DNA of 64,000 nucleotides, from assembly GCA_030407315.1 (NCBI GenBank), contig JALQPE010001807.1, forward strand, positions 1-64,000, written 5' to 3'. The translations under genes and the position numbers were made by a program. Origin of the DNA: Asparagopsis taxiformis. Lineage: Eukaryota > Rhodophyta > Florideophyceae > Bonnemaisoniales > Bonnemaisoniaceae. Position 1 is the stretch's first letter. Each line of letters begins with the position of its first letter. The notes under the pieces were generated by a model. It did no database searches and was not told the DNA's origin. It worked only from the letters and a program-made list of their open reading frames with translations. Positions 43,396-44,855 of the stretch are shown here, one piece after another.

Positions 43396-44855
43396 CTACG
43401 ACGACCTCGCACCACCAAGTTTCGCTTTCCGGACCTTCTCACGCTTCCTCTGACGCTGACGTTTCGCGCGTTTCTCCTCTTGATTCAAGCCCAAGCGCCG
43501 GACACGTCGAAGGTCATCGAATGCCGAGAAATCCGACGACTTACTGGTGCTGCAACATAAGAAGAATGACCGAGACTCTAGACTCATAACAAAAGCCTCC
43601 GAAGAGTCGTAGATGAGACCAGGCGGGGAACGCGAGTCGATACAGATGGCGTGTTTCAGCCCATCTCGACTCCAAACCTGTACTACGTACACGTCCGGCT
43701 GTCTCGAAAGTTCCTTCCGCAACCAAACCCACTGCCTAGAGCGAGAATCTGGGGCCCCTAAATCGAAACGGGGAATCACCACTCGGGACAGAGTAACCGT
43801 CGATGGAGCACGATCGGCGATGGCCTTCGAGACCGAACCAAAGTCCGCGACGCTTGTACAATAGCCACGAATAAGGCGTTCTTCTTCGTCCCGGGCCAAC
43901 TCCCGACGGAAGAATCTATCGGCGGTGTCGAAATCGCATACGAGAGCGATACCATGGCGGCCGCTGCACGCAGGCAGTTGTTGGTGAAGTCCTGCACTGG
44001 TACCACCAGGCGGTTCCGCGGGGTCCCCATGAAGAAGTCAGGGGCTTCGGGGGAAGACACCCGAGCCATGGCGACATTGACTCGTTTCTTCTTACCGGGA
44101 TTCTTATAACACCAAGCATCGAGGCTGGCTATTAAACTGACCCGCGAGGGTTGACCACTCCCTCTGGTCACAGGAGAGGGATTATACTGCTCCTGGAGTG
44201 CCGCGTCGCGCTCCGCCGGTTCGGAGACCTGACGGAAAACCATGGTATACAGATCGATTCGATGGCCGGTTCGCTCCCCTTCGGCAGAGGCATAGAAGCA
44301 GCCTTCCAGTTCGCCGTTTTCACCGCCCTTCGACAACCAGATCTTCTCGATGATCCAATCGGTGTCGTCGGGGCATTCGGCATACTTCTCGGTGTCACCG
44401 TGGGATTCGGTGAGACCGAGACGACAAGCCATCTCCGCGGTAAGGATGGAGATGGCCGGATCGGAGGCGAATTCGACGATCTGAGGCCCGAAGAGGAACT
44501 CTAGTTCCCTGGCCGTCACTTGGCACGGATCGCGACGATTTCGGCCAAAGTCGACGACGAAACGACCACGGTGGTCGGAGGAGCGGGGGATGTTCTGGAC
44601 GTCTTCACGTCCGAACCAACGGAAGAGGTTCTGACGAATTCCCCGATGGGATTTGTCGTCGAAGTTAACCTCGTTGGCCCGTACGGGGACGGCTTCCCCG
44701 GGGCGATAGCGTACCGCCTGGCCGCCCTCGCGACGGTAGGTGCCAGGAGCCGCGGGAGGGTCTCGTCTGGGAATCCGCGCCGCCCGAGCAGCTAGCTCCT
44801 GCCGAGGGGCAGTCCCCCCAGTCGACTTCTTTGCGGTCTGTTTCGTCTTGGCCAT
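43396..44855 (-). CDS. Antisense gene with a histone H3 tail-like N-terminus; frame change near 43950
   Basis: Lies inside element 3, opposite to pol, with convergent ends 170 bp apart. From ATG 44855 it reads [14 protein letters not shown] then APR, LA, AAR: 19 of the first 26 residues after Met match the histone H3 tail by eye, and RYRPG recurs further on. Lys4, Lys9, Ser10 and Thr11 are kept; Arg2 and Arg8 are Lys; Lys14 is Thr. The body (about 290 residues) matches no family I know. Near residue 294 stands NNCLRAA, like a thiol protease nucleophile (Cys 43974-43976). The frame then stops at 43776, but the -1 frame continues from about 43950 to 43396 with LKHAICID and LIYDSSE, giving a possible Cys/His/Asp set, and ends in a Lys/Arg-rich tail. 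Frameshift mutation or programmed shift is undecided. Gypsy elements with a 3' antisense gene are known in plants (Grande). Confidence 0.8.

Follow-up and report, generated by a model that had tools for sequence, protein, structure and literature searches.

Several long terminal repeat (LTR) retrotransposons of plants and fungi, among them Grande, RIRE2, Retand, PvRetro13 and Boty, carry an antisense open-reading frame (ORF) between pol and the 3' LTR, termed aORF-3R; according to a review of 2020, no function had by then been assigned to antisense accessory ORFs of retrotransposons (PMC7264820). Histone mimicry, in turn, has already been described in viruses and in certain host proteins. Sgo1 and PAF15, for example, have N-termini that resemble the first residues of histone H3 and bind H3-tail pockets, namely the Survivin BIR and the UHRF1 PHD (PMC9253516, PMC7060239). 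Here we describe an antisense gene of a Ty3/gypsy LTR retrotransposon (element 3) in a 64,000-nucleotide stretch of the red alga Asparagopsis taxiformis (assembly GCA_030407315.1, contig JALQPE010001807.1, positions 1 to 64,000, which we refer to as the window), whose product is almost certainly a selected mimic of the H3 tail carried on a retrotransposon protein.

Going by the extracts available for these papers, the gene has its place, its orientation, its many copies and a suspected nuclear role in common with aORF-3R, but the hosts of the latter are plants and fungi, and none is described there with a histone likeness or a protease-type domain (PMC7264820), whereas the element 3 gene has both. 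Sgo1 (PMC9253516) and PAF15 (PMC7060239) likewise mimic the first H3 residues at their N-terminus, yet both are host proteins, whilst the likeness in element 3 spans 27 residues and belongs to a mobile element, in a protein that also has a protease-type domain. As in viral histone mimicry (hepatitis delta antigen and BAZ2B, PMC6972770), a parasite genome, a histone likeness and chromatin proteins would come together here, although the element 3 gene holds the whole N-terminal H3 tail and keeps it across distant relatives. VANC, an additional protein encoded by the Arabidopsis VANDAL transposons, clears silent marks, a role only proposed for the element 3 gene; VANC attaches to noncoding parts of the elements that encode it, and the abstract mentions neither a histone likeness nor a protease (PMC10398659). 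No H3-tail mimic encoded by a transposon appeared among the matches listed for the open-licence PMC literature.

The antisense gene lies between pol and the 3' LTR on the strand opposite gag-pol, and its first 27 codons (44775..44855, minus strand) encode the tail mimic, which equals H3 at 20 of 27 residues including the initial methionine; this recount agrees with the preliminary description of the locus, which gave 19 of 26 residues after Met. A phmmer search of the ORF against PDB sequences returned 130 matches at E <= 1 (best E 2e-7), the best 60 of which are histone H3 chains throughout, including variants and H3/CENP-A chimeras. The remainder of the protein had been called non-histone, and this holds: no Pfam Histone match was obtained in the antisense protein (P0001, E <= 1) or in the ten A1 members (E <= 5), and none of 17 genome-wide Pfam Histone matches falls on a copy of the gene.

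The tail is not confined to the window. We searched the 141.5-Mb genome with a 23-base pattern for MA-x-T-[K/N]-Q-T-A, using the reversed pattern as control, and found 46 sites against 0 for the control. Compared by hand, three of the 46 are host H3 genes, of which two resemble each other and lack introns whilst the third apparently has one, and 43 lie in copies of the antisense gene, which form two subfamilies, F1 and F2, ca. 40% identical to each other. A single-copy capture of H3, such as one broken H3 gene caught in this element alone, is rejected by these 43 genome-wide sites. When the genome was searched with the protein, 109 stretches matched, many being fragments of single copies, and tails were read at 31 F1 and 12 F2 loci. 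Outside this count stand L050 and L026 (no tail in the motif search), L027 (not put through the motif search) and the unfetched copies; the L050 copy nevertheless aligns from residue 1 in the protein search, and a tail piece is located just outside L026.

Relatives beyond this genome were sought by a profile search of 5.8 billion proteins, in which scoring was restricted to the 8000 candidates with the most words in common, and more relatives may exist. Three were recovered and aligned with L004, a 486-amino-acid (aa) F1 copy (alignment A3): P0002 is near-identical (93% identity), whilst P0003 (E 1.7e-52, 32% identity) and P0004 (E 1.4e-25, 28% identity) are distant. P0003 begins with MARTKQIASKSTGGRAPRKQLASKCAR and has the tail, and in P0004 the tail starts at Met17; both are known here from protein sequences alone, and the retrotransposon context comes from the F1 and F2 copies. 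Two of three viral_contigs scans contained no viral relatives, the 39-residue match from the third (L053) lies in an ORF unlike the antisense gene and was taken for chance, and a search of plasmid DNA for the gene gave no match.

Four lineages (F1, F2, P0003 and P0004) could thus be compared. Across them the tail is the best-conserved 27-residue window, with 69% mean pair identity, and it holds 14 of the 59 invariant columns among 486; A1, T3, Q5, A7, S10, T11, G12, G13, P16 and R17 are identical in all four sequences. Between F1 (L004) and F2 (L013) the non-synonymous divergence (dN) is 0.24 in codons 1-27, 1.54 in codons 28-60 and 0.74 (61-130), 0.59 (131-260), 0.42 (261-300) and 0.72 (301-450) further on, whilst the synonymous divergence (dS) is infinite, 2.0 or 3.0, so that synonymous sites are saturated. 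Purifying selection on the tail between the subfamilies is therefore supported, and the grounds for refutation named in the preliminary description, a tail missing from other copies or free of selection there, did not overturn the mimic. The ratio of non-synonymous to synonymous differences (pN/pS) of the tail, from disjoint pairs chosen by hand, is 0.28 for four F1 pairs and 0.09 for four F2 pairs; outside the tail, F1 shows 0.36 in codons 28-60 and 0.21 in codons 61-220 (3 pairs). The tails differ from host H3 by 10-11.5 non-synonymous differences with a dS of at least 1.7, which makes the capture old; the simplest account is that the tail came from an H3 gene, was acquired ahead of the divergence of the known lineages and has since been retained under selection. 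Independent capture of H3 in each lineage is disfavoured: the replacement of R8 and K14 is common to all four, and the remainder of the protein is homologous. The pentapeptide RYRPG, which had been likened to H3 41-45, does recur at aa 49-53 (44697..44711, minus strand), but it is typical of F1 only, being absent from both F2 proteins aligned and from P0003 and P0004; it may be left over from a later part of H3, or the likeness may be due to chance.

Among the positions at which the tail departs from H3 are sites of histone marking. In F1, T3, K4, A7, S10 and G13 are unchanged in 31/31 loci and K9 in 30/31, whilst F2 has Q5, T6, S10, T11, G13 and R17 in 12/12 loci, together with N4 in 12/12 and R9 in 11/12. 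The preliminary description had Lys4, Lys9, Ser10 and Thr11 kept: Ser10 and Thr11 are indeed identical in the four lineage sequences compared, and K4 and K9 in F1, P0003 and P0004, but not in F2, and a general preservation of the two lysines as methylation sites does not stand. The typical tail has lost R8 and K14 to other residues in each of the four lineages, K23 in F1 and F2, and K18 in F1; among F1 loci R8 is found as an exception in 2/31 and R2 likewise in 2/31. In H3 the replaced sites carry acetyl, methyl or ubiquitin marks, and R8 is required by some enzymes. With R8 and K14 replaced in four lineages and K4 and K9 lost in F2, the tail looks like a ligand partly freed of histone marks, which keeps the shape of H3 and drops the sites of host marking, rather than a faithful methylation substrate.

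Behind the tail (aa 1-27) the protein consists of a conserved part of unknown fold (~aa 60-270), a protease-type domain (~aa 283-450; 43507..44009, minus strand) and a basic C-terminus. The last two of these, like the antisense TATA box described below, had gone unnoticed in the preliminary description. The full-length AlphaFold2 model is poor, but the last 190 residues model as a papain-like cysteine protease type with a predicted local distance difference test (pLDDT) of 78.8 and a predicted template modelling score (pTM) of 0.78, and the structural matches of this model are tegument-like deubiquitinases, Josephins, staphopain, the ComA peptidase and AvrPphB. The putative nucleophile is a conserved Cys (C294 of L004; 43974..43976), followed by a conserved His (H402 of L004; 43651..43653) and Asp (D417 of L004; 43606..43608), all on the minus strand. 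Among loci with an aligned residue, the Cys is kept in 36/40, the His in 34/37 and the Asp in 35/38, and the three are also present in P0003 and P0004. The Cys-His-Asp order is shared with papain-like cysteine proteases and deubiquitinases, which the predicted fold appears to resemble; unlike these, the antisense protein has no detectable sequence family (when the protein, ten members and relatives were run against Pfam, no family exceeded the threshold and the few matches were weak and scattered), and its hydrolase activity is putative.

The gene had been placed at 43776..44855, which is indeed an ORF of the window copy (minus strand, 359 aa), but its true footprint is 43396..44855 (minus strand): by tblastn in two frames, aa 1-300 of L004 map to 44855-43956 and aa 301-486 to 43956-43399. 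The window copy is therefore frame-shifted near 43956, close to codon 301, and the last ~58 residues of its 359-aa ORF are out of frame. An open frame of 486-487 aa from the tail is present in 8 of 26 F1 loci examined, whilst only L013 of the 12 F2 loci has a frame of such length (484 aa), with the C-terminal end and the Cys altered there. Antisense placement beside pol recurs at the F1 locus L028 (pol end, other strand) and at the F2 loci L009, L010, L012 and L014; depending on the segment, the pol of these F2 loci shares 41-68% identity with the element 3 pol. A TATA box, CGGTATAAAAGC (45118..45123, minus strand), sits between LTR and gene ~268 nt 5' of the antisense ATG, and for this reason the gene may have its own promoter. 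An exact CGGTATAAAAGC occurs at -260 to -269 from the ATG in 22 of 31 F1 loci, whilst 2 loci have a variant and 7 yielded no TATA[AT]A; different TATA-like words lie further upstream in 9/12 F2 loci. A cluster of CTTACTGTAAG / ACAGTAAG-like repeats lies upstream of the gene at 44995-45060; such repeats, which are possible regulatory sites, give 1-4 motif matches per locus in 31/31 F1 loci and are found in 0/12 F2 loci.

Element 3 itself (38398..45417, plus strand, F1 subfamily) is bounded by two 230-bp LTRs (38398..38627 and 45188..45417, both plus) with one mismatch between them, and by a 5-bp target-site duplication CGATG on both sides (38393..38397 and 45418..45422); the window copy is young. 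Its gag (38627..40075, plus) carries a CCHC-like zinc knuckle and the start of the aspartic protease, both matched by Pfam below curated cut-offs, and its pol (40079..43228, plus) holds the rest of the protease, reverse transcriptase, RNase H and integrase, in the Pfam order RVT_1, RT_RNaseH, Integrase_H2C2 and rve. An in-frame TGA at 40073-40075, in the aspartic protease region, splits the gag-pol of the window copy, where both F2 copies compared have a sense codon, and with the antisense gene frame-shifted as well the copy is possibly not autonomous. The pol has no Chromo match (Pfam, E <= 1), and element 3 is thus not assigned to the chromoviruses. Chromodomains had been ascribed to elements 1 and 2 of the window and denied to element 3; the gypsy ORF at 30383-35254 does have one, but none was found at 21172-25785 (E <= 0.01). 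The segments flanking element 3 (35802-37792 and 45418-46457) correspond, in inverted orientation and with 82-90% complementarity, to an older repeat located at 16307-19848, and element 3 therefore seems to have been inserted in one copy of that repeat.

Elsewhere in the window, a 597-aa ORF (58005-59798, plus) combines two domains, an N6_N4_Mtase DNA methylase (E 5.8e-16) and a SET domain (E 3.2e-7), and a 471-aa ORF just upstream of it has no Pfam match at E <= 0.01. A Plavaka-type transposase (Pfam E 1.1e-21) lies at 10450-11826 (minus), a 43-nt unit forms a tandem array at 14143-14486, and a very long inverted repeat spans 50-8835 (arms 50-3397 and 5489-8835, 2091 nt between them), which is 100% complementary in the four pieces listed and could be real or an assembly artefact.

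How the protein might act can be put as follows. The antisense gene, probably transcribed from its own promoter between pol and the 3' LTR, would yield a nuclear accessory protein, from which removal of Met1 would leave a free A1-x-T-x-Q-x-A...S-T-G-G..P-R end. This end would occupy the H3-tail pocket of one or more partners (a PHD-type reader, a histone-modifying complex or an H3 ubiquitin ligase), the tethered cysteine hydrolase would cut or deubiquitinate the bound partner or its neighbours, and silencing of the element would thereby be relieved ("bait and blade"). The tail most naturally reads as a docking device for H3-tail-binding proteins, and this is probably correct. A docked tail with an attached cysteine hydrolase acting on the docked partner is the best joint reading of both ends of the protein, though it falls a little short of being probable in itself, and the fuller proposal of a targeted silencing breaker, in which a mark-altered H3 tail serves as bait for silencing complexes and the catch is disarmed by a papain-like protease or deubiquitinase of the same chain, is put forward only tentatively. 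The host genome has 10 stretches matching PHD fingers and three matching SWIRM, the best two of which are SWI3-like by Pfam and without an amine-oxidase domain. Ten stretches match the LHC family, and for one of these LHC proteins the Porphyridium entry 7y5e is among the best PDB matches, in keeping with a red-algal host; elicitin, fungal transcription-factor and SRA families had no genome matches, in searches run without a positive control.

Should the C-terminal domain be inactive or otherwise used, the tail could act as a pure decoy which titrates or occupies readers or writers of the H3 tail, as the identity of ten residues from A1 to R17 in four lineages and the pocket binding of the Sgo1 and PAF15 N-termini (PMC9253516, PMC7060239) would allow. 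We consider this unlikely, as an inert domain would have no need of the Cys-His-Asp kept across lineages, and much protein would be required to out-compete real H3 tails. Somewhat less likely again is a tether that would work as a chromovirus chromodomain in reverse, with the tail and the basic C-terminus placing the protein or the integration complex on particular chromatin, or using histone import factors or chaperones. The lack of a chromodomain match in element 3, next to the one in the gypsy ORF at 30383-35254, fits a tether, but the protein is separate from and antisense to gag-pol, which leaves a link to integrase without support, and K14 (four lineages) and K23 (F1, F2), both important for H3 import, are not kept.

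The single chain that joins an H3 tail to a papain-like model also invites the idea of an H3-clipping protease whose own tail serves as propeptide or autoinhibitor, and H3 clipping has been reported across eukaryotes (PMC13198579). Yet ~250 residues of sequence separate the tail from the protease domain and there is no cleavage site or evidence of autoprocessing, which makes such a pseudosubstrate improbable. We give no better prospects to a methylated mimic, whose Lys4 and Lys9 host enzymes would methylate to recruit HP1-like or other readers: the two lysines of F1, P0003 and P0004 favour it, but F2 carries N4 and R9 at these sites, and G9a-type enzymes require R8, which no lineage has in its typical tail. 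The H3K9-like sites of the host proteins G9a, LIG1 and ATF7IP do work in this manner (PMC9768651). Weighing against selection on the tail, and in favour of a chance resemblance or a functionless captured H3 fragment, is the pN/pS of the F1 tail, which is not below that of codons 61-220, so that recent F1 evolution alone singles out no constraint on the tail. A chance match is nevertheless rejected by the phmmer E of 2e-7, by the pattern control (43 sites on gene copies vs. 0), by the F1-F2 dN and by conservation in four lineages, and with the tail conserved among relatives of 28-43% identity and F1-F2 synonymous sites saturated, a chance likeness or a functionless fragment is extremely improbable.

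A retrotransposon gene that keeps a 27-residue H3 tail across relatives of ~30% identity makes transposon anti-silencing by histone impersonation directly testable, and its natural variants at R2, K4, R8, K9 and K14 provide an evolutionary map of the H3-tail contacts which the partner needs.
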